Origin: Desulforudis sp.
Lineage (GTDB): Bacteria > Bacillota > Desulfotomaculia > Desulfotomaculales > Desulforudaceae
DNA: 33,764 nucleotides
Assembly (NCBI GenBank): GCA_003604975.1
Contig: QZIR01000026.1
Coordinates: 1-33,764 of the forward strand
Reading direction: 5' to 3'
The first letter of the stretch is position 1. Every line of letters starts with the position of its first letter. Positions 2,423 through 31,339 of the stretch are shown here, one piece after another. Both the position numbers and the translations under genes were made by a program. Under the pieces are notes generated by a model, which saw only the letters and a list, made by a program, of their open reading frames with translations, was not told the DNA's origin and did no database searches.

Positions 2423-3280
<858 letters not shown>

Positions 3281-3598
3281 TTGAAGAAGGTCAGTGCGAT
3301 TGTCCGGCCGGAGATGGCCGAAGAAGTGTCCGAGGCCCTGGCCAAGGGTGGGTTCTCTGCCCTTACCAAGATGGATGTGGCCGGCCGCGGCAAGCAGATG
3401 GGTCTCAGGATGGGCAGCGTGTACTACGATGAACTGCCGAAGGTCATGCTCTGGTTAGTGCTCGATGACGAAAGAGTGAACGAGGCCGTGGAGATCATCA
3501 ATAAGACCGCGCACACCGGAAACTTCGGTGACGGCAAAATCTTTATCAGCCCCGTGGAGGAAGCTTACACGATTCGTACCGGAGTGAAAGAGCTATAG
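3281..3598 (+). CDS. nifI1: P-II-family nitrogenase regulator NifI1
   Basis: A 105-residue P-II homologue placed between nifH and nifD, the defining position of NifI1. Start is TTG at 3281, directly after the nifH stop, with AGGGGAG at 3265-3271 inside nifH. The core is recognisable: MKKVSAIVRP, the TGNFGDGKIFISP motif and the IRTG end. The T-loop region (GRGKQMGLRMGSVYYDEL) differs from GlnB, as in NifI1 proteins. In methanogens NifI1 and NifI2 form a complex that binds NifDK and blocks the NifH docking site when 2-oxoglutarate is low. The same post-translational ammonium switch-off is inferred here from homology and position. Confidence 0.93.
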   Translation: MKKVSAIVRPEMAEEVSEALAKGGFSALTKMDVAGRGKQMGLRMGSVYYDELPKVMLWLVLDDERVNEAVEIINKTAHTGNFGDGKIFISPVEEAYTIRTGVKEL

Positions 3599-3612: not shown

Positions 3613-3978
3613 ATGAAAGAGATTATCGCCGTTATTCGGCCGAACAAGATGCAGGCCACCAAGGATGAACTGGCCCGTATCGGATTCCCGTCCATGACCG
3701 CGGCCAAGGTATTCGGGCGTGGTAAACAGAGGGGCCTGGCCGCTGAACTGGCCTTCGATCTACCGGCTAAGCTGGCTACACACGGGGGAGGCATGCGCTG
3801 GATACCAAAGCGGATGGTTAGCCTGGTGGTTCCGAGCAAGGACGTTTCGAAGGTAGTGGCCGCGCTCATCCGGGTCAACCAGACCGGAGAGATCGGTGAC
3901 GGCCGGATCTTTGTCAGCCCGATCGAAGACGCAATCCGTGTGCGCACCCAGGAGAAGGGTGACATCGCCCTGGTGTAG
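3613..3978 (+). CDS. nifI2: P-II-family nitrogenase regulator NifI2
   Basis: A 121-residue P-II homologue, partner of NifI1. The ATG at 3613 follows TAGGAGGTGG, which overlaps the nifI1 stop. Motifs are [12 protein letters not shown] at the start, the NifI2-type T-loop with [20 protein letters not shown] (about residues 48-67), and [16 protein letters not shown]. The longer, basic T-loop is the usual distinction from NifI1 and GlnB and is the part thought to contact NifDK. It lies 44 bp before the nifD start and is almost certainly cotranscribed with nifD. Function is inferred from the established methanogen NifI system. Confidence 0.93.
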
Positions 3979-4022
3979 GGTCATCCGGGCGACGCCATTC
4001 AGATTCAGAAGGAGTAGAAATA

Positions 4023-5447
4023 ATGCCTTTTATCAGACTGAAGTGTGACGAACTGATCCCGGAGCGGGAGAAGCACACCTATATCACAGATAAGGATAAC
4101 CCGATTGTCCCGCTGTGTAACATCAACACGATCCCGGGGGATATGACCGAGCGTGGGTGAGCCTTCGCCGGTGCCCGCGGGGTCGTGGGCGGACCAATTA
4201 CCGACGCTATCCAGATCGTGCACGCCCCGGTAGGGTGTGCCTACTATACCTGGGCGACACGTCGGCACCTATCGGACCAATATGCCTGGTCCCTGCCCGG
4301 GAAGCTGGACAACGTGGCGTTTAACCGCCGCTACTGTGTAGTGACCGATATGGAGGAAAAGGATGTTGTCTTCGGCGGGAGTAAGAAACTTCTAAAGAGC
4401 GCGCTCGAGTCGATAAAGCTGTTCCCGGAAGCGACCGGGGTCATCATGTACACCACCTGTACCTCCGGTCTGATTGGAGACGATATCGGGTCGGTGGCGA
4501 AACAGATCGAGCAGGAGACCGGTAAGCTGGTGTTCTTTGCCGAGGCGCCCGGCTGTTCCGGGGTGAGCCAGTCGAAGGGCCATCATGTGGCGAACCGGCA
4601 GTTCTTTGGACAGATCAACGAGATCCGGCGCAAGCAACCGGAACGGGTCACCCCGGAGGAGGAGCGCACACCGTACGACATCATCTTAGTCGGGGAGTAC
4701 AACATGGACTGGGACCTTAAGGTGATCCTGCCGCTGATGGAGAAAATCGGGGTGCGCGTACTGAGTACCTTCACCGGTAATGCCCGGATGATGGATCTGG
4801 TCCGGCTGCCCGATACCAAACTGAACGTGGTGCACTGCCAGCGGTCGGCAACTTACATCGCGGATATGATCAAGGAAGGCTACGACATCCCCTACGTGAA
4901 GGCGTCGTTCTTCGGTATCCAGCAGACGAACAAGGCCCTGCGCACGATCACCCGGCATTTTGGTCTGGATGAGCTGGCCGAGAAGGTCATTGCCGAAGAG
5001 ACGGCACGCATCCAGCCGGCCCTGGACTGGTACCGCGAACGCCTGAAGGGCAAGACTGTGGCCATCTACGTCGGCGGGCCCCGGGTCTGGCACTGGATCA
5101 AGCTTATGGAAGAACTGGGGATGAAAGTGGTGGCCGGCGCCTGTACCTTCGCGCATGAAGACGACTACGAAAAGATCAACAGCCGGGCGCCGGACGGGAT
5201 GCTGATCATTGATAACCCGAACGAGTTCGAGGTCGAGGAGTTGCTGGAGACCTGTAAACCGGACATCTTCCTCTGCGGCCTGAAGGAGAAGTTCCTGGGC
5301 CGGAAGATGGGCATTCCCACCCTGAACTCGCACTCTTACGAGAAGGGGCCCTACGCCGGATACGTCGGATTTATCAACTTTGCCCGGGATATCTACCAGG
5401 CGTTGGGGGCACCGGTCTGGAGCCTGGTTAACGGAAAGGAGGAATAG
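4023..5447 (+). CDS. nifD: Nitrogenase MoFe protein alpha chain NifD, in-frame UGA read as selenocysteine 46
   Basis: Reading from ATG 4023 (AAGGAG at 4009-4014) gives 474 residues with one in-frame TGA at 4158-4160, codon 46. The context is [20 protein letters not shown]. The same position in other NifD proteins is the conserved RGCAYAG cysteine (Azotobacter Cys62), a P-cluster ligand. Everything else expected is present: second P-cluster ligand Cys72 (HAPVGC), third Cys146 ([11 protein letters not shown]), FeMo-cofactor ligand Cys272 (VVHCQRS), the [12 protein letters not shown] segment and cofactor His437 ([12 protein letters not shown]). The 428 codons after the TGA are intact. A protein starting at GTG 4185 would lack two P-cluster ligand regions' context and has no ribosome site, so recoding is preferred over a short gene or pseudogene. 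A sequencing error (TGC or TGT read as TGA) cannot be excluded. Confidence 0.9.
4158..4195 (+). promoter_or_regulatory. Candidate bacterial SECIS element in nifD
   Basis: The UGA at 4158-4160 is followed by a hairpin: GCCCGC (4173-4178), loop GGGGTC (4179-4184), GTGGGC (4185-4190), six pairs including one G-U. A lower helix GGT (4170-4172) with ACC (4193-4195) continues it across a two-base GG bulge. The loop starts 18 nt after the UGA and has G in its first two positions with an internal GGU, features of SelB-binding bacterial SECIS elements such as that of E. coli fdhF as I recall it. The same bases encode a conserved glycine-rich segment in GC-rich sequence, so a chance hairpin is possible. 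Confidence 0.65.
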
Positions 5448-5453
5448 CAGAAC

Positions 5454-6926
5454 ATGTCCAGCAATTGTCAACCCATACCGATTGAAGGTATTGCCTATAA
5501 CCAGCTCAAGATTGAGAAGAAGCCGATCGTACCCGAATACGTGCCGCGTGATCCGGTTCTGGTCCCCAAGGCCAACCGTACGGTGGTCGTGAACCCGTCC
5601 CGGACCTGTATGCCCTTCGGCGCGATGTTCGCCGGGCTCGGAATGCACCGCGGGCTGCCCTTTGTGCAGGGGGCCCAGGGCTGCACCACTTACGTGCGCT
5701 ACACCTTCTGCCGAATCTTTCAGGAACCGGCTAGCATCGCCAACGCCTCCTTCCACGAGGACGCGGCGGTCTTCGGCGGCCGGAAGAATTTCATCGAGGG
5801 TATGCGTAACCTGATCGTGCGTTATCACCCTGATGTGGTGACCGTGGTGACCACCTGTTCCAGTGAGATCATCGGAGACGACATGGTCAGCTTCATCAAG
5901 GCTGCGCGGAAGCGCCTGATCAAGGAACTGGGCGAGGAGGAGGGCAACCGCCCGAAGCTGGTGCTGGTGAACACCCCCAGTTTCGCCGGTTCACATATCG
6001 TCGGCTACGACCGGGCTTCCCGGGCCTTCCTGGAGACGCTGGCCCAGGACCACTCGAAGCCGAATAACCGGATCAATATTCTCCCCGGGATGGTCATGCC
6101 GGGCGACCTGCGGGAACTGAAGCACATGCTGCGCGAAATGGGTGTGGACGCCTACATCCTGTTTGATATCAGCGACGTGTTTGACACCCCGTTGATGCCC
6201 CCGCAGACCTTGCCCTACTACCCGGAGGGAGGTACCAGGGTCGCGGAAGTCGAGGACATGGGCAACTCGATCGCTACCTTTGCCCTTTGCCAGAACGAGG
6301 GCGGGCTCGGAGCCCGCTACCTGGAGCAGAAGTTCGAGATTCCCGCTTTTATCGGGCCGATGCCGATGGGCGTCAAGAACACCGACCTGTTCCTGAAGCG
6401 GGTGTCCGAGGTTACCGGAAGGGAGATCCCGAAGTCGCTGAAGGATGAGCGGGGACGGCTGTTGGATTTCATGGCCGACACCCTGCACCACACCATGATG
6501 AAGCGGGTGGCCATATTCGGAGACCCGGATATTGCGACCGGCATTACCCGCTTCGCGTGCGAACTGGGTATGGAGCCGGTGGCGGTGATGAGCGGGACAA
6601 AGACCAAGACCTTCACAGCCGACATCGAAGGGATCGTGGGTGAGTTCGGATTCAAGCCGCTGATCCTAAATGGCAGCGACCTGTTTGAGCTCGAGGAGTC
6701 ACTGAAGACGATGCCCGTGGACGTGATCATCGGAAATTCCAAGGGTGCTGATATCGCCAAGGAACTCCAGGTGCCACTGGTCCGGGCGGGACTCTTCGTA
6801 TACGACCGTGTCGGTTACCATAAGCGGCCCGTAATCGGTTACAGGGGAGGGGAACGGTTGCTGGCCGACCTCGTGAATGCGATTATGGATTTCAGCTATC
6901 CCGAGGAGCGGACCCAGCAGCTATAA
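5454..6926 (+). CDS. nifK: Nitrogenase MoFe protein beta chain NifK
   Basis: A 490-residue beta subunit that pairs with NifD. The three P-cluster cysteines are present as ordinary cysteines: Cys52 (TCMPFGAMFA), Cys77 (QGAQGCTTYVR) and Cys135 (VTTCSSEIIGDD). The NTPSFAGSHIVGYD segment with the P-cluster-adjacent serine is also intact. The gene begins 6 bp after the nifD stop with AAGGAGG (5437-5443) inside nifD, so the two are coupled. Thus only the alpha chain carries the unusual UGA. The N terminus is short compared with the Azotobacter protein, as is usual for clostridial NifK. Confidence 0.97.
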   Translation: MSSNCQPIPIEGIAYNQLKIEKKPIVPEYVPRDPVLVPKANRTVVVNPSRTCMPFGAMFAGLGMHRGLPFVQGAQGCTTYVRYTFCRIFQEPASIANASFHEDAAVFGGRKNFIEGMRNLIVRYHPDVVTVVTTCSSEIIGDDMVSFIKAARKRLIKELGEEEGNRPKLVLVNTPSFAGSHIVGYDRASRAFLETLAQDHSKPNNRINILPGMVMPGDLRELKHMLREMGVDAYILFDISDVFDTPLMPPQTLPYYPEGGTRVAEVEDMGNSIATFALCQNEGGLGARYLEQKFEIPAFIGPMPMGVKNTDLFLKRVSEVTGREIPKSLKDERGRLLDFMADTLHHTMMKRVAIFGDPDIATGITRFACELGMEPVAVMSGTKTKTFTADIEGIVGEFGFKPLILNGSDLFELEESLKTMPVDVIIGNSKGADIAKELQVPLVRAGLFVYDRVGYHKRPVIGYRGGERLLADLVNAIMDFSYPEERTQQL

Positions 6927-6931
6927 GCGCC

Positions 6932-8308
6932 ATGTTAAAAAAGGAATATGCCCTTGACGGGTTTAAGCGGGTACCCTTTATTGATCCCGTCCGGGCCGTG
7001 CACGGTGTTCTCATCGATGCCGCGGCGCCGGCGGTTCCGGCCTGTGACCAGCGCACCGTTCCGGGCGTAATGTCCCAGCGGGCCTGCGCCTATTACGGGG
7101 CCCGGTGGTTCCTGGCTCCGCTGAAGCAAGCGATCCACCTGGTACACGGCCCGGTATCCTGCGCCTACTACGGTGAAACGGTACGTAAGAAGAAGTACAC
7201 CGTGTTCTCAACGGACTTGAGCGAGAAAGAGGTCATCTTCGGCGGGGAAGCCAAACTCCTGCAGAACCTTCTGGAGATTGGTGAACGCTTCCCGGACACC
7301 AAGGCCATCCTAATCTACGTTACTTGTGCCCCCGGGTTTACGGGAGACAACGTGGAGCGCGCCTGCCGCAACGCGGAGCAGGCGACGGGGATCCGCTGCG
7401 TGCCTGTGAACTGCCCCGGTTTCCTGGGTTACCACCAGGCTACCGGCCATGAAATCGGAGCACAAGTGCTGCTGGACCACTTTATCGGGCGGGACGACAA
7501 GGCGGAGGCCGGTTCTTACGACATCAACATCCTGGGTGAGTACGACGTGATGGGGGACTACAAGGTCATCAAGGCGCTCCTCGGTAGGATGGGTATAAAC
7601 GTGGTCTCCGCACTCACGGCTGACGCCACGGTGGATAACCTGGCCCGGGCCCACCGGGTACGGCTGAACGTCATACACTGCCGACGCACGGGAGGCCCGA
7701 TGGCCGAGAAGATGCGGCAAAAATACGGCATCCCGCACGTCAAGGTTTCCTTTTTCGGGGTCGCTCAGACCAGTACTGCGCTACGGCAGATCGGGGCGCG
7801 GCTCAACCTGCAGGAGGCTGCTGAACGAGTGATCGCTGAGGAAGAGGCGATGGTCGCCGCCGACCTGGAGCGTTACCGGTGGGAACTGAGTGGCAAGCGG
7901 GTCGGTCTGTTCTTTGGCGGTTCGCGCATCGGGTCGATGCAGAACTGCTATCGGGAACTGGGCATTGAGGTGTTGGCGGCGGGCAGCCAGTTTGGCGGCA
8001 AGGATGATTACCGTGACGCCTGGTCCACCATGAAACCCGGTGCCGCCCTCGTGGATGATACCAACGAGGAAGAGGTCCTGCGTTTCATCCGACAGTACCG
8101 ACCGGACGTTATCGCCGGGGGGATGCGGGAGAAGTGGATCGCGCATAAGTTTGGTATCCCGTTCACCGTCTTTCCGCAAGAAAGCGGTCCCTACGCCGGA
8201 TACTTCGGTTTTCGCAACTTAGCACGCGACATTCTGGTGGCCCTCAAGGCACCGGTGTGGCAGATCGTAAGAGGGGAGTCAGAAACAGATGCTGGATCTA
8301 CGTCTTAA
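6932..8308 (+). CDS. nifE: Nitrogenase cofactor scaffold NifE
   Basis: A 458-residue NifD-like protein, assigned to NifE. The cluster-binding cysteines are Cys52 (SQRACAYYGAR), Cys77 (VHGPVSCAYY) and Cys132 (VTCAPGFTGDN), and IHCRRTGG is also present. The NifD cofactor histidine ([12 protein letters not shown]) is replaced by FPQESGPYAG, as expected for a scaffold rather than an active nitrogenase. In known systems NifE forms a tetramer with NifN on which the iron-sulfur core made by NifB is converted to FeMo-cofactor. Here nifB follows immediately and no nifN is seen. The ATG at 6932 is 5 bp after the nifK stop with no good ribosome site nearby, suggesting coupling to nifK. Its last 20 bp overlap nifB. 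Confidence 0.9.
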   Translation: MLKKEYALDGFKRVPFIDPVRAVHGVLIDAAAPAVPACDQRTVPGVMSQRACAYYGARWFLAPLKQAIHLVHGPVSCAYYGETVRKKKYTVFSTDLSEKEVIFGGEAKLLQNLLEIGERFPDTKAILIYVTCAPGFTGDNVERACRNAEQATGIRCVPVNCPGFLGYHQATGHEIGAQVLLDHFIGRDDKAEAGSYDINILGEYDVMGDYKVIKALLGRMGINVVSALTADATVDNLARAHRVRLNVIHCRRTGGPMAEKMRQKYGIPHVKVSFFGVAQTSTALRQIGARLNLQEAAERVIAEEEAMVAADLERYRWELSGKRVGLFFGGSRIGSMQNCYRELGIEVLAAGSQFGGKDDYRDAWSTMKPGAALVDDTNEEEVLRFIRQYRPDVIAGGMREKWIAHKFGIPFTVFPQESGPYAGYFGFRNLARDILVALKAPVWQIVRGESETDAGSTS

Positions 8309-9173
8309 CAATGTGCCGGTGAACACAGAAACCGTCCGAAACAGGCCTGTCGGTAAGGTTAATGACTTAAAGGGGCACCCGTGCTTTAACCCGGGCGACC
8401 ATCACCGCTTTGGCCGCATTCATCTGCCGGTGGCGCCCCGCTGCAATATCAAGTGCGGTTACTGTGACCGGAAGCTAGACTGCGCGAACGAAACCCGGCC
8501 GGGTACCTCCAGCAGGGTTATCACCCCGGAAGAGGCGCTCCTTGCCCTGCAAAAGGCGTTGGTGGAAGAGCCCCGGATCCGGGTCGCGGCCGTGGCCGGC
8601 CCCGGGGATCCCCTGGCGAATGAGGAAACCTTCCGCACTTTTGAACTGGTTAGTAAGACTTACTCTGGAATGATCAAGTGCCTGAGTACCAACGGGCTGT
8701 TTCTGCCGGGGAAGGTCGACCGCTTGGCGTTGCTAGGGCTAAAAGCGCTTACGGTAACCCTCAACGCGGTTCATCCGGAGATTGGTTCCCGGATCTACGA
8801 GTGGGTCGATTATGAAGGTGAGCGTCTTACCGGCTACGACGCGGCGGACCGGCTGATCAAGAACCAGCTTGAGGGGATCAAGCGGGCGGTTGAACTCGGC
8901 ATCTCGGTCAAGGTAAATACGGTACTGATTCCGGGCATTAACGACAGCCACGTGGAAGAAATCGCGCAAACGGTAAAGGAACTGGGGGTACACCTGATGA
9001 ATATTATGCCGCTCTATCCCGCGGCTTCGTTTAAGGACTTCGCGCGGCCCACCGCTAGTCAACTGCAGGAGGTGCGCTCCACGGCTTCCGGAATCCTGCC
9101 GCAGATGACTTGGTGCCGGCAGTGCCGCGCCGATGCCTATGGGTTGCTGTCGGCCGAAACATGTTTGTCTTGA
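8289..9173 (+). CDS. nifB: Radical SAM cofactor-core synthase NifB
   Basis: A 294-residue radical SAM enzyme that builds the NifB-cofactor (8Fe-9S core with central carbide). The CxxxCxxC motif is at Cys52-Cys56-Cys59 (APRCNIKCGYCDRK), preceded by HPCF and followed by DCANETRPGTSSRV, all NifB landmarks. The C-terminal MTWCRQCRADAYGLL carries the extra cluster-binding cysteines. There is no fused NifX/NafY domain, so this is the short NifB type common in archaea and Clostridia. It starts inside nifE with AGAGGGGAG at 8270-8278. It is the last gene before composition changes into the molybdate transporter block. Confidence 0.97.
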   Translation: MLDLRLNNVPVNTETVRNRPVGKVNDLKGHPCFNPGDHHRFGRIHLPVAPRCNIKCGYCDRKLDCANETRPGTSSRVITPEEALLALQKALVEEPRIRVAAVAGPGDPLANEETFRTFELVSKTYSGMIKCLSTNGLFLPGKVDRLALLGLKALTVTLNAVHPEIGSRIYEWVDYEGERLTGYDAADRLIKNQLEGIKRAVELGISVKVNTVLIPGINDSHVEEIAQTVKELGVHLMNIMPLYPAASFKDFARPTASQLQEVRSTASGILPQMTWCRQCRADAYGLLSAETCLS

Positions 9174-9234
9174 AAGTAAACTTCGGGGGCTGTTGGGGGG
9201 GGGGTGCGAAATGAGAAAGGGAAGGGGTACGAAA

Positions 9235-10053
9235 ATGAAAAAAGTGTTTATTGTCGGATTGGCTGTATTAGTGTTCGCCGTGCTGACCGTGGGGTGTGTC
9301 GATAAAAACGAGGTAAAAATAGCCAAATTCGAGGATTTGGGGCTGGAAGGGGTAAAGATTGCCTCCGGAGACCCCGGACATGTTCCTGCGGGAAAGTATG
9401 CGGTGGATATTCTTTGTAATCTGGAGCAGACCGATCCGGATCTCGCCGGCAAGATCACAAACAACATTGTTACGAGGGAGGCTCACGTCAGAGCTGTTCT
9501 GGACAAGGTTGTTTTGAAGGAAGTTGATGCGGGGTTTGTTTACCGGACGGACGCTTACACCGAAAGAGAAAAGGTTGAGATTATAGAAATACCTGAAGAA
9601 ATCAACGTGGTGCCGGAGTATCCGGTCGCGGTCTTAAAGGGTAGTGACAACCGGGAAGCGGCCGCTGAATTTGCCGGGTTCGTACTCTCTCGGGAGGGGC
9701 AGGAGATACTCGTCGATTACGGATTTACCGGCGTAGTGAGCGATCCGGAACCTTACACGCCGAAGGAGATCAAAGATACCATTGTGGTCTATGCCGCCGG
9801 ATCGTTAACCGATGTCTTTGAAGAAATGGCGACCGAATTCGAAAAGATGACCGGTGGCGAGGTAAAGCTGCTATTCGCAAGCTCCGGCGCTTTAAGACAG
9901 AAGATACAGGCTGGGGCCGTGGGTGGTGAAGCCGGTGCCGATGTGTTTGCTTCGGCCAGTATGAAGCAGATGAGAATTCTCGAAAAGGAGGGCTTCGTGG
10001 CCGACTATGGCGTATTCGCCAAGAACGAAATGGTTGTGGTCGTGCGAAAGTAG
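9235..10053 (+). CDS. Circularly permuted ModA-like molybdate-binding lipoprotein
   Basis: A 272-residue lipoprotein: basic start, hydrophobic 4-18, lipobox LTVGC with Cys21. It should bind molybdate outside the membrane for ModBC. The halves are in reversed order. Residues about 33-175 (FEDLGLEGVKIASGDPGHVP to VDYGFTGVV) match the C-terminal half of ordinary ModA. Residues about 182-272 (TIVVYAAGSLTDVFEEM to FAKNEMVVVVRK) match the N-terminal half. By comparison with E. coli ModA the ligand residues survive: Ser190, the serines of FASSG, Ala52 (HVPAG), Val85 (AHVRA) and Tyr103 (GFVYRTDA). ATG 9235 is preferred because it gives a clean signal peptide behind GGGAAGGGGT; ATG 9211 is an in-frame alternative. 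Its base composition is more AT-rich than nif. modB follows at 10086. Confidence 0.85.
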   Translation: MKKVFIVGLAVLVFAVLTVGCVDKNEVKIAKFEDLGLEGVKIASGDPGHVPAGKYAVDILCNLEQTDPDLAGKITNNIVTREAHVRAVLDKVVLKEVDAGFVYRTDAYTEREKVEIIEIPEEINVVPEYPVAVLKGSDNREAAAEFAGFVLSREGQEILVDYGFTGVVSDPEPYTPKEIKDTIVVYAAGSLTDVFEEMATEFEKMTGGEVKLLFASSGALRQKIQAGAVGGEAGADVFASASMKQMRILEKEGFVADYGVFAKNEMVVVVRK

Positions 10054-10085
10054 GCGCTGTTTGAGGGGTGGGAGGTGTTAAAATC

Positions 10086-10874
10086 GTGCCGATTCGTAGC
10101 GGCTACCTGGCGATAGGCGTTAAATTCGCAACCAGCATCAGTTTGTTGGTGTTTGCTTTGTTGATCATCTTCCCGCTTATCGCATTGGTATTTACTATTT
10201 TCTCGGCCCCGGTGGATTTCAAAGCTTTATCGTCCAGATCGGTGATTAACCCGCTCATATTGAGTGTGCTGACCGCCTTGATTTCAACAGCAATTTCGGT
10301 ACTTGTAGGTGTTCCGCTCGCCTACGTGCTCACCTACAAAAGTTTTCCGCTGAGAGACGTACTTGATACAATGGTGAATCTTCCTTTCGTGTTGCCGCCG
10401 AGTGTGGCCGGATACCTGCTCCTACTGACGTTCGGAAAATACGGGTTGCTTGGATATCCACTCAACATACTGGGAATTACAATTATGTTCACGACCTTCG
10501 CAATCGTCATCGCCCAAACGTTCGTTGCTTTGCCCTTTGTTGTTAAGAGTGCCAGGGCGACAATGGAAGACATTCAACCTTCTCTGATTGATGCCGCAAA
10601 GACGCTTGGAGCGCGTGAGTTTGAAATATTCAGGGAAGTCATCCTGCCCTTATCAAAAACGGGAGTGCTGTCCGGAACAATAATGGCGTATGCCAGAGCG
10701 ATAGGGGAGTTCGGCGCTACCATGATGGTTTGCGGGTTATTGGTGACTTTACCGGTAGCGATCTACGCCAACGCTATAGGCGGGGACAGAGAGACAGCCA
10801 ATGTGCTTGCCGTGGTGCTGATCGCAATTGCCTTCACCATACTTACAGTATTTAAAAGGGTTGTGAGATCATGA
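10086..10874 (+). CDS. modB: Molybdate ABC transporter permease ModB
   Basis: A 262-residue inner-membrane permease of the molybdate/tungstate/sulfate group with about six hydrophobic segments. The cytoplasmic EAA loop that docks the ATPase reads GAREFEIFREVILPLSKTG and is followed by ARAIGEFGATMM, typical of ModB/CysT. GTG 10086 is chosen as the start because GGGAGGTG lies at 10070-10077, at normal spacing; an in-frame GTG at 10068 lies over that ribosome site. It overlaps modC by 4 bp (ATGA). The neighbours, a ModA-like binding protein and ModC, support molybdate over sulfate. Its place between nifB and nifV suggests supply of molybdenum for FeMo-cofactor. Confidence 0.92.
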   Translation: MPIRSGYLAIGVKFATSISLLVFALLIIFPLIALVFTIFSAPVDFKALSSRSVINPLILSVLTALISTAISVLVGVPLAYVLTYKSFPLRDVLDTMVNLPFVLPPSVAGYLLLLTFGKYGLLGYPLNILGITIMFTTFAIVIAQTFVALPFVVKSARATMEDIQPSLIDAAKTLGAREFEIFREVILPLSKTGVLSGTIMAYARAIGEFGATMMVCGLLVTLPVAIYANAIGGDRETANVLAVVLIAIAFTILTVFKRVVRS

Positions 10875-12010
10875 TTGAGCTAATAAATATCGCCAAAAAA
10901 TTTAAGAATAAAGTTGTGCTGAATGACATCAGCCTAAGTGTGGGGAAGGGAGAAATAATGGTGCTCTTGGGGGCAAGTGGGTGCGGTAAAACCACCCAAT
11001 TGAAAATAATAGCCGGATTAGTAAGACAAGACCGCGGGGATGTAGTGCTGAACAATAAAGTGATCAATAATTCACCACCCCAGGAGAGGAACATCGGCTT
11101 CGTTTTTCAGGACTATGCCTTGTTCCCTCATAAAGACGCATTCGAGAACATTGCCTTTGGCTTAAAGATAAGCAAGTTGCCCAGAAATGAGGTAAATAGC
11201 AGAGTATGCAAAACAATGGAAATGCTGGAAATTGGAGATTTTAGGAATGAAAGAATCTCTCGGCTGAGTGGAGGGCAGAAGCAGCGAGTCGCCTTGGCCA
11301 GAGCGCTGGTTATGGATCCGGATGTTTTACTCCTGGATGAACCGTTAAGTGCGTTGGACCCGGTTTTAAGGGAAAAATTGAGAGAAGAACTGAACGCTAT
11401 TCTGAAAAACACTGGCATAGCTGGAATTTATGTAACGCACGATCTGACCGAGGCGATGATCGTTGGGGATAAGATCGCGATCATGAACGAAGGCGAAATA
11501 CAGCAGATCGATAAGCCGGATGAGGTGTTTTATCGTCCCAAAACAGAATTTGCGGCCAGATTCGTCGGGGCAAGGAATATCCTGGAGGGGCGGGTTGTCG
11601 AATTGAACCGGGATGAAGCAACAATTGAGGTGATTAACGGGTCAAATCCATTTAAAATTCGCACCTTGAAGTATCCCCTATTCGAGCGCCAGAAAAATAT
11701 CTCCCTTTGCATCCATCCCGAGGAGGTAGTCCTGGGTTTGAGAGAAGGGGACAATTTGATGCGCGGAACAATCACCGGCATAATTCCGAACGGCCCGGCG
11801 CTAAAGATTACCGTCAATATTGCCGGTTTGAAACTATATGCAACCACTACCAGACGTTTGTTGAACTACGAGGTAAACGATGAAGTTTGGGTATCATTTA
11901 GCAGAAACGCATTTCACCCGCTATGTGGCAAGAAGTGCCGTTCTCCAGCTCGGGAAATTCCCGCATCGTGTGTCAGATCAGGGGGCAGCAAAGAAGCGTT
12001 GTGCCGCTGA
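10871..12010 (+). CDS. modC: Molybdate ABC transporter ATPase ModC
   Basis: A 379-residue ABC ATPase with Walker A GASGCGKTT (about 34-42), Q-loop FVFQDYALFPH, signature LSGGQKQR, Walker B VLLLDEPLSALDP and switch histidine in YVTHDLTEAM. A C-terminal TOBE-like region (about 230-350) would sense oxyanion. The start overlaps the modB stop. The family normally ends near the segment VWVSFSRNAFHPL; here about 28 further residues rich in Cys and basic residues follow, in DNA whose composition returns to GC-rich. This tail may come from read-through into host sequence at the edge of a transferred block. Specificity for molybdate is inferred from ModA and ModB. Confidence 0.92.
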   Translation: MIELINIAKKFKNKVVLNDISLSVGKGEIMVLLGASGCGKTTQLKIIAGLVRQDRGDVVLNNKVINNSPPQERNIGFVFQDYALFPHKDAFENIAFGLKISKLPRNEVNSRVCKTMEMLEIGDFRNERISRLSGGQKQRVALARALVMDPDVLLLDEPLSALDPVLREKLREELNAILKNTGIAGIYVTHDLTEAMIVGDKIAIMNEGEIQQIDKPDEVFYRPKTEFAARFVGARNILEGRVVELNRDEATIEVINGSNPFKIRTLKYPLFERQKNISLCIHPEEVVLGLREGDNLMRGTITGIIPNGPALKITVNIAGLKLYATTTRRLLNYEVNDEVWVSFSRNAFHPLCGKKCRSPAREIPASCVRSGGSKEALCR

Positions 12011-12033: not shown

Positions 12034-12094
12034 GCAAAGCCGGGTGGGTTGATGGACGTGGTTATGCTCTTAAATAGGGAGGGGTGTGGTCAGG

Positions 12095-12919
12095 ATGCTT
12101 ATCATTGTGGACAGCACCCTGCGTGACGGGGAACAGTCGGCCGGGCTGGCTTTTTCGACCGGCGAAAAGATACAGGTCGGAAAACTTCTCGATGCGCTCG
12201 GGGTGGACGTCATCGAGGCCGGCATCCCGGCGATGGGCCGTGTAGAGCAGGAGGCAATCAGCGCCCTGATCCATGCCGGTCTCCGGGCCGAGGTCACCTC
12301 CTGGAACCGGATGCATCCCGCAGACATTAAGGCCTCTCTCGAATGCGGGATCAGGCTCCTACACCTTTCCGCTCCGGTCTCCGACATTCACCTGGAGCAC
12401 AAGCTGCGCTGTAGTCGGTCATGGGTGCTGGGACAGATGCGGGAGATGGTGGCTTTCGCACAGTCCAGTGGCTGCCGGGTTTCCGTGGGGGCGGAAGACG
12501 CTTCACGGGCTGATCCCGCTTTCCTGCGCGCCTACGCCTTGGCTGCCGAGGAAGTCGGCGTCGAACGCCTGCGGATCTGTGACACCCTGGGGATACTGGA
12601 CCCTTTCAAAACCTACGAAATGGTCAGGAGTGTCGTGGAGTGGGTTAACATCGATGTGGAAATACACGCCCACAACGACTTCGGAATGGCTGCTGCAAAC
12701 ACCCTGGCCGCACTTCGCGCGGGCGCCCGGGCCGCAAGCGTCACCGTGAACGGGATCGGTGAGCGGGCCGGCAACGCCGGGCTTCAGGAGGTCATCCGGG
12801 CGGCCCGTCAATTCTTCGGTCTTAAGCGGGGCTATGATGCTAATATAATGGATCAGTTACAGTCTCTGGTACGGGCTTTAAGCTACCGGGAGTTCCCTGA
12901 AGTGAAGGAGGCGATCTGA
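12095..12919 (+). CDS. nifV: Homocitrate synthase NifV, short (catalytic barrel only)
   Basis: A 274-residue member of the DRE-TIM metallolyase family, condensing acetyl-CoA with 2-oxoglutarate to homocitrate, the organic ligand of FeMo-cofactor. The N-terminal [13 protein letters not shown] motif and the metal-binding HAHNDFGMA are present, together with the late barrel motif [12 protein letters not shown]. Full-length NifV proteins have roughly 370-380 residues; this one stops after the barrel, lacking the C-terminal helical portion. Clostridium pasteurianum splits NifV into two genes, but no matching second part is recognised here. ATG 12095 is used because GGGAGGGG (12077-12084) is well spaced; GTG 12086 is too close to it. 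It could also be a related short homocitrate/isopropylmalate synthase-like protein, but the nif context favours NifV. Confidence 0.85.
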
Positions 12920-14877: not shown

Positions 14878-15468
14878 GTGGTACAGTCCCGCATCGTCAT
14901 CGCCGTCGACAACGCGGTCGAGCGAAAAAAACTGAAGGACAAGCTGCAGAAGGCCGGTCACCTGGTCATCGGCCAGGTCCGGGACGCCAAAGAAACGCTT
15001 CGCGTGACCTTCCAGACGAACCCCGATCTGGTCATCCTGGACGCTGGTCTCCCGGACTTCGGCGGCTTGGGTGTGGCCCAGGTCATTGATGAACACCGCG
15101 TGTGTCCGGTGATTCTCCTCGCCTCGGAGGTCAGCGACATCGTTCAGCGCGCCCGGCAGGGGTGGCTGCTCAGCTATTTACTGTCCCCGTACACCGATGA
15201 CGAACTCTATCTGGCTACGGAAGTCGCCCTGGCCAACTTCCAGCGTCTGGTCGCCCTGGAGCGTGAAAACACCAGGCTGAAGAACAACCTGGAGACCCGG
15301 AAGCTGGTGGACCGCGCCAAGGGACTCCTGATGAACCACAAAAAACTCAACGAGCAGGAAGCCTATAAGTACCTGCAGCGCCTGAGCATGGACCACGCCA
15401 AACCGATCGCCAGGATCGCCCGTCAGGTGATCGAGCAGCTTGCGGGAAACGGACGGAATGGGAATTGA
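14878..15468 (+). CDS. ANTAR-domain response regulator, first copy (atypical receiver)
   Basis: A 196-residue protein with a receiver-like domain (about 5-120), a coiled-coil linker and a C-terminal ANTAR RNA-binding domain (about 135-188; TRKLVDRAKGLLMNHKKLNE and EQEAYKYLQRLSMDHAKPI). ANTAR proteins bind paired hexaloop hairpins and prevent transcription termination. The phospho-acceptor Asp55 (LVILDAGLP) is present. The conserved Thr/Ser is Ala82 and the conserved Lys is Ser103 (YLLSPY), and the acidic pair is reduced to Asp11, so normal phosphorylation switching is doubtful. No histidine kinase is encoded nearby. GTG 14878 is used; the ribosome site is weak. Targets are probably the hairpin leaders in this window. 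The product resembles antiterminators of the NitR/NasT type by architecture only. Confidence 0.88.
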   Translation: MVQSRIVIAVDNAVERKKLKDKLQKAGHLVIGQVRDAKETLRVTFQTNPDLVILDAGLPDFGGLGVAQVIDEHRVCPVILLASEVSDIVQRARQGWLLSYLLSPYTDDELYLATEVALANFQRLVALERENTRLKNNLETRKLVDRAKGLLMNHKKLNEQEAYKYLQRLSMDHAKPIARIARQVIEQLAGNGRNGN

Positions 15469-15507
15469 CAGTATTCTGTATACCTGAAAAACTTGTTGAA
15501 AAAGAGG

Positions 15508-15537
15508 TTGCATTGAGGCGGGCATCCGATCTATAAT
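15508..15537 (+). promoter_or_regulatory. Sigma-A-type promoter before the pseudo-glutamine synthetase
   Basis: TTGCAT (15508-15513), 18-bp spacer, perfect -10 TATAAT (15532-15537). Predicted start about 15544, leaving some 20 nt before the hairpin at 15565. The same TTGCA-type -35 with 18-bp spacing recurs at 18764-18793. Confidence 0.65.
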
Positions 15538-15564
15538 CTATAACAACTGCTAAATATATGAGAT

Positions 15565-15629
15565 GGGGCAATGGCGTCCCTCTGGAAGTTCCTTGTTTTA
15601 AGGGGTTTCCGGGGACGTTTTTTATTTTT
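15565..15629 (+). promoter_or_regulatory. ANTAR-type hairpin plus terminator before the pseudo-glutamine synthetase
   Basis: Hairpin GGGGC (15565-15569), loop AATGGC (15570-15575), GTCCC (15576-15580) with A1/G4; the loop is identical to that before amtB. Its 3' arm is reused by a long terminator: CGTCCC (15575-15580), GGAA and CCTT pair with AAGG, TTCC and GGGACG (15612-15617), followed by TTTTTTATTTTT to 15629. No canonical first hairpin is visible between the predicted start and 15565. Confidence 0.75.
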
Positions 15630-15647
15630 CGGAGGTTATGTAGGCTA

Positions 15648-16982
15648 ATGCAGAGAGTCGTCACTGTAGATGATGTAATCGCGCTTGCTGAGGAGACACA
15701 CGTCAAGTTTGTCCGGTTGCAGATTACCGATATCCTGGGCGCATTAAAGAACGTGGCCATTACGGTGGAGGAACTTGAGCGGGCCCTGGCCGGCCGGGTT
15801 CTCTTCGACAGTGCGATCATCGAGGGACATATCCGGGGCCGGGCACGGGATATCCTGCTTCAGCCGGATCCGTCCACCTTTGAGATTTTTCCCTGGCGAC
15901 CCCGTGACGGCGCCGTGGCGCGCCTGATCTGCGAAGCCCGTAATCCTGACGGGACTCCGTTTGAGGCTTGTTCACGGTTGGTCCTGCGGCGAGCCGCCGC
16001 GGCCCTGCGCGAAGCCGGTCTGGAACTGACCGTCGGCGCCGAGATTGAGTTTTTCCTGCTGCACGGTGACGGTCAGGGCCAACCTAAACTGGAGACCCAC
16101 GACCGGGCCGGCTACTGTGACCTCTCGCCGGTTGACCTCGGCGAAAACGCACGGCGGGACATGGTACTGACCCTGGAGGAGATGGGTATCGAGGTGATGT
16201 CCTCGCACCACGAGGAAGCACCCGGCCAGCACGAGATCGGTCTGAAGGATGACACTGTCGTAGCCATCGCCGATAAAATCGCTACTTTTAAGTTTGTGGT
16301 CCGTACCGTCGCCCAGCGCCACGGATTGCACGCTTCATTTATGCCGAAACCGTTACCGGGGCGGAGCGGTTCCGGCCTGACGCTGAAACTATCCCTGTGG
16401 CGCGAGACGGAGAACCTCTTCACGGTTCAGGATGGTAAGCTCAGCACTGCCGCACGGCACTTTATGGGCGGCCTTATCCGCCACAGCGGGGCGCTGACGG
16501 CCCTGACCAATCCACTAGTGAATTCCTACAAGCGGATGGTTCCCGGCCAGCTCTCGCCATACCTGGCGGCCTGGTCCAGAGATAACCGGTCAACGATGCT
16601 TCGCGTTCCCACGCAGCCCGACGAAAGCGTGCGGTTGTTGCTCCGAAGCCCGGATCCCGCGGCCAATCCTTACCTGGCCCTGGCTGCCATCGTCGCTGCC
16701 GGCCTGGATGGAATAGAGGGACAGATCGAGCCGGAACCTTTTATTAACGACGAGGTGGTCGGGGAAACCGATTCCCCGGCCCTGCGTACCCGGCTGAAGA
16801 AGGACGGTTTACCCCGCAACCTGCAGAACGCACTCCAGGCTTTGGAAGGAGATGAGCTGATCAGCGGTGTACTCGGGGAAGAGGTTGTGCAGCGCTACCT
16901 GAGACACAAAGAGAATGAATGGTCCGAGTTTGAGTCCGAGATTCACACCTGGGAGATAGAGAAGTACCTGGCCAACTATTAG
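15648..16982 (+). CDS. Glutamine synthetase-like protein lacking catalytic residues
   Basis: A 444-residue GSI-family homologue, full length and collinear with the two normal enzymes at 19739 and 25112. Residues kept include the GAEIEFF glutamates, HHEEAPGQHEI and NSYKR. Residues changed are decisive. The GSGMH histidine (His269 in Salmonella) is Thr245 (GSGLTLK). The flap glutamate of VPGYEAP (Glu327) is Leu302 (VPGQLSP). The metal ligand glutamate of RVELRNPDP (Glu357) is Leu331 (RLLLRSPDP). The DGSS loop reads FDSAI. Glutamine synthesis is therefore unlikely; a ligand-sensing or protein-binding role is inferred, perhaps toward the ANTAR proteins. A different gamma-glutamyl ligase activity is less likely without these residues. 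ATG 15648 follows GGAGG (15631-15635) immediately after the terminator; an upstream in-frame ATG at 15558 lies inside the hairpin. Confidence 0.9.
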   Translation: MQRVVTVDDVIALAEETHVKFVRLQITDILGALKNVAITVEELERALAGRVLFDSAIIEGHIRGRARDILLQPDPSTFEIFPWRPRDGAVARLICEARNPDGTPFEACSRLVLRRAAAALREAGLELTVGAEIEFFLLHGDGQGQPKLETHDRAGYCDLSPVDLGENARRDMVLTLEEMGIEVMSSHHEEAPGQHEIGLKDDTVVAIADKIATFKFVVRTVAQRHGLHASFMPKPLPGRSGSGLTLKLSLWRETENLFTVQDGKLSTAARHFMGGLIRHSGALTALTNPLVNSYKRMVPGQLSPYLAAWSRDNRSTMLRVPTQPDESVRLLLRSPDPAANPYLALAAIVAAGLDGIEGQIEPEPFINDEVVGETDSPALRTRLKKDGLPRNLQNALQALEGDELISGVLGEEVVQRYLRHKENEWSEFESEIHTWEIEKYLANY

Positions 16983-17048
16983 AGAGAAAAGGGCTGGACA
17001 CGCCCTCAAGACTTATTCTAATTAAATGATTCAGGAGGATGATTACCA

Positions 17049-18680
17049 ATGACCTTGAGCGTTGGGACGAACGCCAGTCCTGCAACCCTGACCAAGTTGC
17101 GGACCGGTGAAAACCAGTGCCCGCAGAGCGGGATGTGTGTAACCTGTCTGGATGGATGCCCGGGAACGTGTGAGATTGGTAAGTCTGCGGTCCGCAGTAC
17201 CGAGTTGATTTATCCGAAGCCGTACGGGAAGACCACCTCGGCTTCCCAGAAGAAATATCCCGTGGACTACTCGCACTTCAATATCCTGGGTACGCCGGTC
17301 GGCGCCATTGGTGTCGATGCCGACCCCGATAAGGCGATCTTTCCGGCGGTCAACCTGGAGACCGCCCTCGGTGCCAATGGTAACCTGAAGCTGAAGTTCC
17401 CGATGGTGGTTGCGGCGATGGGCTCGACCAAAGTGGCGGCCGACAACTGGGAGCACCTGGCCGCAGGCGCCGCGATCTCCGGCATCGGCATCGTGGTTGG
17501 CGAGAATGTCTGCGCGATGGACCCCGACTCGGAGATCAGGGACGGACGGGTCATTCACTCGCCGGCGATGGAGAAGCGCATCCATTCTTTCCAGGACTGG
17601 TACAACGGGTACGGTTTTATCGCCGTTCAGGAAAATGTTGAGGATTCGCGGATCGGGGTCCTGGAATACGTGATGGAGAAATTCGGCGTAGAGGCCGTTG
17701 AGCTGAAGTGGGGCCAGGGCGCCAAGGACATCGGCGGAGAGGTTAAGCTGGATACCCTGGAGCGGGCCCTGCAGTTGAAGAGCCGCGGTTACATCGTGCT
17801 CCCTGATCCGGAAGATCCGAAGGTACAGGAAGCCTTTAAAGAGGGCGCTTTCAAGGAGTTTGAACGCCATTCCCGGATCGGAATGGTGGAATGGGAGAGT
17901 TTCAACGCCCGTGTCGAACAGATGCGCGCTAAGGGCGCCAAGTACGTCTTTCTGAAGACGGGCGCCTACGGTCCGGCCGACCTCGCCCGGGCGATCAGGT
18001 TTGCCTCTGACGCCAGGCTGGATCTCCTGACCGTGGACGGGGCCGGTGGCGGTACAGGGATGAGCCCCTGGCGGATGATGAACGAGTGGGGTATCCCCAC
18101 CGTGTATCTGCAGTCCATGATTACCTCGTTCTGCGACCGCTTGGCCGCCAAGGGCGCCTACATCCCACCCATCGCCATTGCCGGCGGGTTGACGATGGAA
18201 GACCACATGTTCAAGGGCCTGGCGATGAGTGCTCCGTACGTCAAGGCGATCGGAATGGCCCGCTCGCCGTTGGCTTCGGCGATGGTCGGCAAGAATGTCG
18301 CGCAGGGTATCAAGGACGGTAAGGTGTTGCCGGAGTACAAGAACTACGGTGACAAGTTAGAGCAGGTCTTTGTCTGTGCCCGTGAAGTCCGCGAGATGCT
18401 TGTGAAGGACTATGCGAACCTACCGGTGGGAGCGATCGGTGTCTATTCATACATTCAGCGTCTCACTCAGGGATTGCGTCAGTTTATGTGCGGTGCCCGC
18501 AAGTTCAGCCTCGAATACATCAGCCGCGACGACCTGGTCGCACTGACCAAGGAAGCCGCCGAGATTTCGGGAATCCCGTACGTGATGGGGGCGCAGGCTG
18601 CAGAAGTCGACCGCCTTCTCGGGCACACGGCAAAGGTGACCGGTTTTGTCGGAAAGACTGAACAAAGGTCGGCGAGGTAG
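17049..18680 (+). CDS. FMN-binding glutamate synthase family protein
   Basis: A 543-residue protein matching the FMN-binding synthase domain of glutamate synthase, without a glutaminase domain. An N-terminal cysteine cluster (Cys24, Cys30, Cys33, Cys37, Cys41; CPQSGMCVTCLDGC) suggests an iron-sulfur site. The barrel segment LTVDGAGGGTGMSPW and the following IAIAGGLTMEDHM are typical FMN/2-oxoglutarate-binding motifs. AGGAGG at 17034-17039 gives a strong start. It follows the pseudo-glutamine synthetase by 66 bp and is likely cotranscribed. It may form glutamate from ammonia or a partner glutaminase, or act in another flavin amination; the substrate cannot be read from sequence. The true three-part glutamate synthase is encoded at 21440-24877. 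Confidence 0.85.
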   Translation: MTLSVGTNASPATLTKLRTGENQCPQSGMCVTCLDGCPGTCEIGKSAVRSTELIYPKPYGKTTSASQKKYPVDYSHFNILGTPVGAIGVDADPDKAIFPAVNLETALGANGNLKLKFPMVVAAMGSTKVAADNWEHLAAGAAISGIGIVVGENVCAMDPDSEIRDGRVIHSPAMEKRIHSFQDWYNGYGFIAVQENVEDSRIGVLEYVMEKFGVEAVELKWGQGAKDIGGEVKLDTLERALQLKSRGYIVLPDPEDPKVQEAFKEGAFKEFERHSRIGMVEWESFNARVEQMRAKGAKYVFLKTGAYGPADLARAIRFASDARLDLLTVDGAGGGTGMSPWRMMNEWGIPTVYLQSMITSFCDRLAAKGAYIPPIAIAGGLTMEDHMFKGLAMSAPYVKAIGMARSPLASAMVGKNVAQGIKDGKVLPEYKNYGDKLEQVFVCAREVREMLVKDYANLPVGAIGVYSYIQRLTQGLRQFMCGARKFSLEYISRDDLVALTKEAAEISGIPYVMGAQAAEVDRLLGHTAKVTGFVGKTEQRSAR

Positions 18681-18698
18681 CCTGTTGGGCCAGAATCT

Positions 18699-18714
18699 CT
18701 AGCAAAGGTGCTAG
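18699..18714 (+). terminator. Perfect hairpin after the FMN protein gene
   Basis: CTAGCA-AAGG-TGCTAG, six pairs, lies 19 bp after the stop codon. A T-rich stretch (GGTTTTATAATTG) comes about 10 bp later, so termination would be inefficient. It may separate the operon from the ANTAR gene. Confidence 0.35.
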
Positions 18715-18763
18715 TGGTTAAACGGTTTTATAATTGTATACTCGCCGGAAATGCCTAAATATA

Positions 18764-18793
18764 TTGCAAACTAACGAGCTAATTAACTATAAT
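18764..18793 (+). promoter_or_regulatory. Sigma-A-type promoter of the second ANTAR gene
   Basis: TTGCAA (18764-18769), 18-bp spacer, perfect -10 TATAAT (18788-18793). Predicted transcription start about 18800, some 20 nt before the first hexaloop hairpin, so the whole ANTAR target is included in the RNA. Confidence 0.7.
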
Positions 18794-18819
18794 CATACCG
18801 TAGGTTAAACTTTATAGTC

Positions 18820-18910
18820 GGGTACAGAGTTGTACCCTGGAGTGGCAATGACGCCCTCATCCAGTGGATAGGTAAATTATGCCTGTCGACCGGTGAGGGT
18901 TTTTGTTTTT
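18820..18910 (+). promoter_or_regulatory. Canonical dual-hexaloop ANTAR target and terminator (autoregulatory)
   Basis: First hairpin: GGGTAC (18820-18825), loop AGAGTT (18826-18831), GTACCC (18832-18837). Second: GGC (18844-18846), loop AATGAC (18847-18852), GCC (18853-18855), extended by GAG/CTC. Both loops have A1 and G4, the full ANTAR recognition pattern. The terminator CCCTCATCC (18854-18862) with GGTGAGGG (18892-18899) and T run to 18910 overlaps the second hairpin, so the two folds are mutually exclusive. It directly precedes an ANTAR gene, implying positive autoregulation. Confidence 0.9.
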
Positions 18911-18928
18911 GAGGGGAGGTTAAGTGTT

Positions 18929-19507
18929 TTGCCAAGACAGCAGAGGGTCGTGCTGGTGGACGAAAACAATGTCTGGCGCAAGAACATCAAGGCGATGCTA
19001 ACCAAGGCCGACCTGATGGTCATCGGCGAAGCCGAGGACGGTATTACCGGCCTCAAACTAATCAGGGCCAGACAGCCGGACATTGTGCTTATCGAGGCGA
19101 TGCTGCCCGGGATGACCGGTCTGGAACTGGCGTCCATCGTGCACGGGGATAAGCTGGCGCCGGTGATCATGATGTGCAATGCCTACTACCAGGATCTCCT
19201 GGCAAAGGCGGTCAGCGCCCATGTCTACGGGTTCCTGGTCAAACCGGTGGATGAGCACCAGTTGATCGCCTCCGTGGAAGTGGCGACGGCCCGGTACGCC
19301 GAGATTGTAAACATTGAAGACGAGATCCGCCAGCTAAAGGATAAGCTGGAAACCCGGAAGATCCTGGAGAAGGCCAAGGGTATCCTGATGAACACCCTCG
19401 GGTTGAACGAGGCTGAGGCCTTCCGCCGGATTCAGAAGCAGAGCATGAACCGACGCATATCCATGCGCGCGGTGGCTGAGGCGATCATTCTTACGCACAA
19501 CATGTAG
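18929..19507 (+). CDS. ANTAR-domain response regulator, second copy (Glu at phosphorylation site)
   Basis: A 192-residue receiver-ANTAR protein, the usual size. The receiver has VVLVDENN and the Lys of FLVKPV, but the phospho-acceptor aspartate is replaced by Glu56 (IVLIEAMLPGMTGLEL), and the conserved Thr by Cys (VIMMCNA). Asp-to-Glu at this site often mimics phosphorylation, so the protein may be always active or controlled by a ligand or partner. The ANTAR domain covers about 135-190 (LETRKILEKAKGILMNTLGL and EAEAFRRIQKQSMNRRIS). TTG 18929 is chosen: GAGGGGAGG lies at 18911-18919, and the reading frame upstream runs back into the terminator. A canonical ANTAR target precedes its own gene and another follows before glnA. 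Confidence 0.9.
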   Translation: MPRQQRVVLVDENNVWRKNIKAMLTKADLMVIGEAEDGITGLKLIRARQPDIVLIEAMLPGMTGLELASIVHGDKLAPVIMMCNAYYQDLLAKAVSAHVYGFLVKPVDEHQLIASVEVATARYAEIVNIEDEIRQLKDKLETRKILEKAKGILMNTLGLNEAEAFRRIQKQSMNRRISMRAVAEAIILTHNM

Positions 19508-19552
19508 CATTGTCCTGGAAAGCTTAAGGTTTCCGACGAAGAAAATTTAATA

Positions 19553-19638
19553 CCGGTACAGAGCAGTACCGGAAGGCAACGGGGCCTTCGAAGACGGTTC
19601 GGGTATGTGCCGGAACCTGTCCTTGAAGGTTGTTTTTT
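19553..19638 (+). promoter_or_regulatory. Canonical dual-hexaloop ANTAR target and terminator before glnA
   Basis: First hairpin: CCGGTAC (19553-19559), loop AGAGCA (19560-19565), GTACCGG (19566-19572). Second: GAAGGC (19572-19577), loop AACGGG (19578-19583), GCCTTC (19584-19589). Both loops show A1/G4 and the hairpins abut. The terminator starts in the second arm: CCTTC (19585-19589) pairs with GAAGG at 19625-19629, enclosing GGTTC/GAACC, followed by TTGTTTTTT to 19638. No convincing promoter is seen after the ANTAR stop codon, so the leader may be transcribed from 18764 as well. Confidence 0.9.
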
Positions 19639-19738
19639 CAGGGGTGATGCGATGTTGCCGGTATAGTTCTAGAGTTGGGCACTGGTCCCTGCGGGGACTG
19701 CAAAGCAATAAACACATTCAATTAAGGAGGTTTCTTAA

Positions 19739-21070
19739 ATGGACGTTTCGGCCAAGCAGGAAATCATGGAAAAGGCGAGACAGTTAGGTGTCAAGTTTAT
19801 CCGGTTACAGTTTACGGACATCATGGGCGTGATGAAAAACCTGGCCATTCCTCTGGAGCAGCTGGAAAAGGCCCTCGACGGTGAATTAATGTTTGACGGT
19901 TCCTCGATTCACGGTTTTGCCCGGATTGAGGAGTCTGATATGTATCTGCGTCCCGACCCGCGCACCTTCGTGGTCTTCCCCTGGCGTCCCCGGGACGGTG
20001 CAGTGGCCCGTCTGATCTGCGACGTCTACAAGCCGGACGGTAGCCCGTTCGAGGGCTGCCCCCGCAACACGCTGAAGCGGGTTCTGGCCGAGGCCCGCAG
20101 CATGGGCTACACCATGAATGCCGGCCCCGAAATGGAGTTCTTCCTGTTCCACGTGGACCCGAACGGCAAGCCGCTCCTGGACACCCACGACAAGGCCGGT
20201 TACTTCGACCTTTCACCGGTGGACCAGGGCGAGAACGCCAGGCGTGAGATGGTCATGGCGCTGGAAGAGATGGGTTTTGAAGTGGAAGCTTCGCACCACG
20301 AGGTGGCTCCCGGACAGCACGAGATCGACTTCAAATACTCCGACGCCCTGGACGTCGCCGATAAGGTTGTTACCTTCAAGTTCGTAGTGCGGACGCTCGC
20401 CCAGCGGCACGGCCTGCACGCGACCTTTATGCCGAAGCCGATCTTCGGGATCAACGGTTCCGGAATGCATATGAACCAGTCGCTCTTCCTGAAGGGCGAG
20501 AACGCTTTCGACGATCCGTCCCAGCCCGACGGTCTGAGCCAGACGCTCCGTTACTACGTGGGCGGCCTCTTAAAGCACGCCCGGACGTTCGCGGCGCTGA
20601 CAAACTCGACGGTAAACTCCTACAAGCGCCTGGTTCCCGGTTACGAGGCTCCGGTTTACGTGGCCTGGGCGCAGGGCAACCGCAGTGCTTTGATCCGGAT
20701 CCCGGCCAAGCGCGGCCTCTCCACCCGTGTGGAACTGCGTAACCCCGACCCGGCCTGCAACCCGTACCTGGCGCTGACCGGTATGCTGGCCGCCGGGTTG
20801 GATGGTATCAAGAACAAGATTGCCCCGCCTGAGCTCACGGAGAGCAACATTTACCACCTTACGGGCGCCCAGCTGGATGAAATGCACATTGCGAGCATGC
20901 CCGGCAGCCTGAAGGAAGCCCTGGATGAGTTGGCCGGCAATGATCTGATGAAGGCCGCCCTCGGTTCGCACTGCTTCGAGAAGTTCGTCGAGGCCAAGAG
21001 TGTGGAATGGGATAACTACCGCGTCCAGGTTCACCCCTGGGAGGTAGACGAGTACCTTACCACTTATTAA
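19739..21070 (+). CDS. glnA: Glutamine synthetase type I, first active copy
   Basis: A 443-residue GSI-alpha-sized enzyme making glutamine from glutamate, ammonia and ATP. All catalytic motifs are intact: FDGSS loop, [40 protein letters not shown] flap and [19 protein letters not shown] keeps the arginine that in Bacillus GSI-alpha mediates glutamine feedback. There is no adenylylation-type extension. AAGGAGG precedes ATG 19739. It lies behind the best ANTAR target in the window and next to an ANTAR gene, an arrangement known for clostridial glnA regulation by antitermination. It is followed by a strong terminator at 21213-21253. Confidence 0.97.
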
Positions 21071-21174
21071 GAAGTGTGAAGTGAGATGTGAGTAGAGATG
21101 GCGGAATTCGCATCGCGAATTTCCTCAACCCTCTCACCTCCAAGATCCCACCTCCCACGTCACAATTGGTGGTC
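21071..21174. repeat. Degenerate GTGAG/CTCAC inverted repeat after glnA
   Basis: Purine-rich GAAGTGTGAAGTGAGATG on the left (from 21071) faces pyrimidine-rich CTCTCACCTC and TCCCACCTCCCAC on the right (about 21131-21158), around an inner hairpin GAATTCGC (21104-21111) with GCGAATTTC (21115-21123). Related ACTTCTCACNTCTCAC-like sequence recurs at 26469-26503 and 31233-31284, so it looks like a dispersed intergenic repeat family. No gene is present. Confidence 0.5.
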
Positions 21175-21195
21175 GCGGGGGCTATAAACCCCCGC
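21175..21195 (+). terminator. GC-rich perfect hairpin
   Basis: GCGGGGG (21175-21181), loop CTATAAA, CCCCCGC (21189-21195). A strong stem without a T run; it may act with the terminator that follows 18 bp later. Confidence 0.4.
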
Positions 21196-21212
21196 TGATC
21201 ATCCTCCTGTCC

Positions 21213-21253
21213 CCCTACCGGGGGGTTGGTCTCCCCCCGGTAGGGTCCTTTTT
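21213..21253 (+). terminator. Strong intrinsic terminator after glnA
   Basis: CCCTACCGGGGGG (21213-21225) pairs perfectly with CCCCCCGGTAGGG (21233-21245), 13 pairs around a seven-base loop, followed by TCCTTTTT to 21253. It separates glnA from the glutamate synthase operon. Confidence 0.9.
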
Positions 21254-24137: not shown

Positions 24138-24139
24138 CC

Positions 24140-24877: not shown

Positions 24878-24878
24878 T

Positions 24879-24920: not shown

Positions 24921-24988
24921 GGGGAACAGTTGCGAATGCCGGCGTGCCGGCGCTACAAATTTGATACTGGCAGGAACAGAAATCTAAT

Positions 24989-31306: not shown

Positions 31307-31339
31307 CCGTTTCGAATAAAGTATTAAGTTAAGCGTAGT

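Follow-up and report, generated by a model that had tools for sequence, protein, structure and literature searches.

How is a nitrogenase gene read when a TGA triplet occupies the codon of one of its metal ligands? The question is raised by a 33,764-nucleotide stretch of DNA from Desulforudis sp. (contig QZIR01000026.1, positions 1–33,764; called the window here), which carries a nifD gene for the alpha subunit of nitrogenase component 1, of the Group III type, at 4023–5447 on the forward strand. The coding frame (4023–5444) comprises 474 codons and is followed by a TAG stop, but codon 46 (4158–4160) is an in-frame TGA. By sequence alignment, this codon corresponds to alpha-Cys62 of Azotobacter, a ligand of the P-cluster.

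Apart from this triplet, the gene has the features of an intact nifD. Its product matches the TIGR01862 profile with 544 bits, above the cut-off, and is the only NifD among the three component-1-like matches in the genome. A ribosome-binding site, AAGGAG (4009–4014, forward strand), can be read directly 5' of the ATG, and the frame stays open for the 428 codons past the TGA. The remaining alpha ligands are kept (Cys72 and Cys146, with Cys272 and His437 for the cofactor), as are all the beta ligands in nifK (Cys52, Cys77 and Cys135), and the spacings of the beta ligands and of alpha residues 46 and 72 match those of Azotobacter. The closest sequence in the PDB, 9spz, matches the window NifD over its full length (E 2e-186); its segment 'TERGCSFAGARG' aligns on the window UGA, where 9spz has a Cys rather than a selenocysteine (Sec). 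The sequence-only reading of this DNA had placed the TGA in the RGC cysteine column of a complete nifD, with the ribosome site before it and an intact remainder with the other ligands after it, and the frame and the 9spz alignment bear this out. Since TGA is an ordinary terminal stop in seven of the 26 listed genes of the window, the TGA code is not reassigned.

The nifD gene lies within a nif cluster whose members are all on the forward strand. Genes for a P-II protein (467–802) and an ammonium transporter (916–2295) lie upstream of nifH (2438–3280), the iron protein gene, whose product scores above the TIGR01287 cut-off. There follow the P-II family regulators nifI1 (3281–3598) and nifI2 (3613–3978), nifD, the beta subunit gene nifK (5454–6926), a gene for a nifE-like cofactor scaffold subunit (6932–8308), a nifB-like radical SAM gene (8289–9173), the binding protein, permease and TOBE-containing ATPase genes of a molybdate-type ABC transporter (9133–12010; the specificity for molybdate is presumed) and a nifV-like homocitrate synthase gene (12086–12919). 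The last of these and nifB are short forms: NifB has 294 residues and consists of the radical SAM part only, while the nifV-like product has 277 residues that cover positions 2–271 of a 365-position model, the C-terminal part being absent. A search for a separate nifN in this genome found none, the sole match to the nifN model being nifK itself. The minimal set nifHDKENB is thus incomplete, with H, D, K, E and B present, as in the published Sec group. Nitrogenase-like working is probably kept, in a cluster that lacks the full canonical diazotroph set, and the homocitrate synthase and molybdate-type transporter genes suggest that the enzyme is a molybdenum nitrogenase. Downstream of the cluster, at 14878–26443, the window has three glutamine synthetase-type genes, two ANTAR response regulators and split glutamate synthase genes; further on, a TPP riboswitch (31337–31442) precedes a ThiD2-ThiE fusion gene (31489–32613).

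The machinery for selenocysteine insertion, which the sequence-only reading had proposed looking for, is present in the genome (3.14 Mb, 99% complete): selA and selB are adjacent, selD is found and there is a tRNA-Sec with the anticodon UCA. The selD gene (L084, C7:10031–10954) carries an in-frame TGA of its own and its product is probably itself a selenoprotein, as is known for SelD in other bacteria. Presence of SelA does not tell Sec genomes from Cys genomes; SelA occurs in 42 of the 42 genomes tested, whatever the state of nifD. The machinery, though required, therefore gives no prediction of that state.

A hairpin begins 12 nucleotides past the TGA, as had been noted from the sequence. 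Its core (codons 51–57, 4173–4193, forward strand) consists of a six-pair stem, GCCCGC and GUGGGC, closed by the loop GGGGUC (4173–4190), followed by GGA; one extra G-C pair is possible, which would leave the loop GGGU. The criteria of Zhang and Gladyshev, from 2005, reportedly require of a bacterial SECIS a hairpin just 3' of the UGA with a loop that starts with G and lies 16–37 nucleotides away, and the nifD hairpin, with its loop at +19 and G as the first loop base, agrees with them. No Rfam SECIS model matched this stretch of the window, even with permissive thresholds. The folding energy is unremarkable for such GC-rich sequence (z = -0.94), and, since it is not significant alone, other evidence for the hairpin is needed.

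This evidence comes from the silent sites. Because the stem is nearly invariant, synonymous constraint was used as a stronger test than base-pair covariation. In the Sec genes (n = 19, near-duplicates and the odd gene of Desulfovirgula thermocuniculi omitted), the mean synonymous difference over codons 51–57 is 0.015, compared with 0.52–0.57 in the other stretches scored; in 21 Cys genes the same codons have a mean of 0.60. The constraint has sharp edges and is seen only in genes with the TGA. Conservation of the hairpin, unlike its energy, thus exceeds chance, and no other single result argues as strongly as this constraint for decoding of the UGA as Sec. All 24 Sec proteins have Val at residue 55, where 15 of the 21 Cys proteins have Ile, a pattern consistent with an RNA signal that limits the protein.

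The sequence-only reading had also suggested that Cys and UGA might alternate at this column in related NifDs, and they do. Searches by family, by order, by phylum and in Thermodesulfobacteriota gathered 45 intact NifD genes, each from a different genome, in two phyla, of which 24 have TGA and 21 have TGC or TGT, always in the same column and mixed within genera. The window genome (Sec) and its congener G001 (Cys) have NifDs that are 93% identical, a second genus is split between G002 (Sec) and G004 (Cys), and the window NifD is 90% identical to the Sec NifD of G002, a member of the same family. A scan of 84,980 species found at least 13 real Sec loci, a lower bound because the search pattern misses variants such as USYAG; four of its 17 hits (L054, L055, L064 and L065) were chance matches. 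The real loci include those of Desulfovirgula thermocuniculi, Desulfofundulus thermosubterraneus, Desulforadius tongensis, Carboxydothermus islandicus, Thermodesulfatator atlanticus and Thermosulfurimonas dismutans. Extra TGA triplets in two nifE-like genes were rejected as selenocysteine codons: the one in G066 proved to be a terminal stop, and an equal frame length suggests the same for that in G050.

A maximum-likelihood tree of NifD, computed after masking of the columns linked to Sec, intermingles Sec and Cys proteins, with eight changes at best and at least seven forced by well-supported branches. Several Cys genes (those of G001, G004, G195 and G493) keep a near-intact relic of the hairpin. 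Hairpin DNA common to the two phyla suggests a single origin of Sec followed by repeated loss, although the change counts do not separate gain from loss and transfer is also possible. The Sec nifD of D. thermocuniculi (G070; L050 and L110) stands out in this tree, since it is nested in a Cys clade. Its hairpin is different and weak (CCGC-GAU-GUGG, loop at +19), its residue 53 is Asp where all other relatives have Gly, and the gene is constrained like its Cys sister (dN/dS 0.065). It may be an independent regain and is a candidate for one; alternatively, its TGA may stem from faulty sequencing or from a nonsense mutation that arose very recently.

Might the TGA of the window be a true nonsense mutation, and nifD a pseudogene? 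Decay of this kind has occurred in Desulfofundulus australicus (L057), in which about 53 first codons of a Sec nifD, with the same TGA, are fused to the tail of nifK and to an apparent nifV fragment, identified by eye; the deletion begins just past the start of the hairpin. Low or absent nitrogen fixation in some Desulfofundulus also fits a pseudogene: a paper of 2024 cites acetylene reduction as very low in Desulfofundulus salinus and as absent in D. kuznetsovii, and the same paper describes nifD 'fragmentation' in part of the genus. The published nitrogen-fixation physiology of the Sec-nifD genera is weak and mixed, and we infer that part of this 'fragmentation' is the Sec codon taken as a stop, D. 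australicus being truly decayed. A nifD decayed after the same TGA, which the sequence-only reading had named as evidence against Sec, is found in this one relative. In the intact TGA genes, purifying selection is strong. Downstream of the hairpin, dN/dS is 0.01–0.16 in pairs that include a Sec gene, and pN/pS over codons 2–45 is 0–0.17, so that both sides of the UGA must be translated and kept. With the 428 intact codons, a window nifD that breaks no otherwise invariant column and a TGA that occurs in two phyla but always at the Cys column, a pseudogene is very improbable. The same selection on codons 2–45 counts against a functional product initiated at an internal GTG (4185), 3' of the UGA, from which an ORF finder gives a 420-residue frame; this product would be without the alpha-62 ligand, its start sits within the conserved hairpin, and its probability is close to nil. 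As little credit can be given to a sequencing or assembly error for TGC or TGT: a relative in the same genus does have TGT, but the same TGA recurs in 23 other assemblies, and the silent sites of the accompanying hairpin are conserved only when the TGA is present.

A different kind of alternative concerns function. Howard et al. 2013 (PMC3760896) suggested that the UGA could serve in expression control, in which case the UGA and its hairpin would act mainly through selenium supply or slow Sec insertion and have little effect on the P-cluster. Since Sec is inserted in this case too, the conflict with the preferred explanation is confined to function. The UGA does come early in the gene, and Sec and Cys neighbours show no parallel compensating changes in NifD or NifK, save V55, whose codon is part of the hairpin, and one conservative V/I exchange in NifK, so the two residues look interchangeable. 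A control element, however, would not have to sit at a ligand, and in 24 of 24 genes the UGA is at the metal-ligand codon and never at another early codon. Expression control as the main role is accordingly unlikely, though it deserves some weight.

The explanation preferred here is that SelB and tRNA-Sec decode UGA-46 under the direction of the 3' hairpin, giving a full-length Group III alpha subunit in which a selenolate would replace the alpha-Cys62 thiolate as a ligand of P-cluster iron. This reading, which the sequence-only reading had also reached, is very probable: insertion of Sec at UGA-46 is well supported by the machinery, the Cys/UGA alternation, selection on the SECIS, purifying selection on the protein and the SECIS of a formate dehydrogenase gene in the same genome. 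Sec insertion in the cell would place an Se-Fe bond in the P-cluster, and this ligation would presumably have a selectable effect, on electron transfer, on cluster stability or on assembly; the sequence-only reading had proposed that redox behaviour or oxygen sensitivity could be shifted. It is conceivable, but falls short of probable, that an Fe-Se P-cluster is advantageous in some anaerobes and that Sec has often been lost and even re-evolved, in D. thermocuniculi, as though the RNA signal had overridden the protein. A selenium ligand would be a natural, X-ray-visible probe beside a single iron of the electron-transfer cluster and would naturally test the contribution of the P-cluster thiolate; the close Sec/Cys pairs, with highly similar proteins within one genus, make such a comparison practical. 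In addition, annotation may report intact nifD genes of such anaerobes as fragmented or lost, which would skew surveys of nitrogen fixers.

In the formate dehydrogenase gene of this genome, the UGA is followed by a hairpin whose loop, GGUCU, is at +19, just as far away as in nifD, and the GGUC motif is common to both. Several known systems resemble that of the window. Cys-type Group III NifDs of the same families are 66–93% identical proteins from operons of the same type; unlike the Sec genes, they have Cys at codon 46 and lack synonymous constraint over codons 51–57. The sequence-only reading had taken a selenocysteine NifD to be undescribed, but Howard et al. 2013 (PMC3760896) had described three Group III NifDs with alpha-Sec62; they reported Sec genes and a bSECIS for the same subunit, codon 46, ligand and Group III type as in the window. 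Their text gives the codon as 'amber TAG', whereas the cases here all have TGA. Two correlates from that paper appear not to hold here. Sec62 was proposed to covary with beta-Ala92, the equivalent of Ala74 in the window NifK and a correlate rather than a defining trait; this residue is Ala in all 44 NifKs scored, Sec and Cys alike, and so does not separate the two. The absence of nifN noted for the Sec group is not strict, since a second beta-type gene lies between nifK and nifE in two of the Sec genomes, those of Desulforadius tongensis (G035) and G101. These nifN candidates (L108:5002–6345, reverse strand, and L109:3000–4334, forward strand) fall below the curated nifN cut-off. A 2026 review of the prokaryotic selenoproteome (PMC13188914) includes TIGR01862 (nitrogenase component I alpha) among the selenoproteins annotated in GenBank, with an RxU motif, the same motif as in the window NifD; the term appears once, in a table, and no treatment of the SECIS, of the distribution or of the evolution of this family was found in that review. 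The window nifD is therefore a new member of the alpha-Sec62 NifDs already reported, and what the present comparison adds to them is the signature of selection on the SECIS, the repeated switching between Sec and Cys and the apparent failure of beta-Ala92 and nifN absence as correlates.
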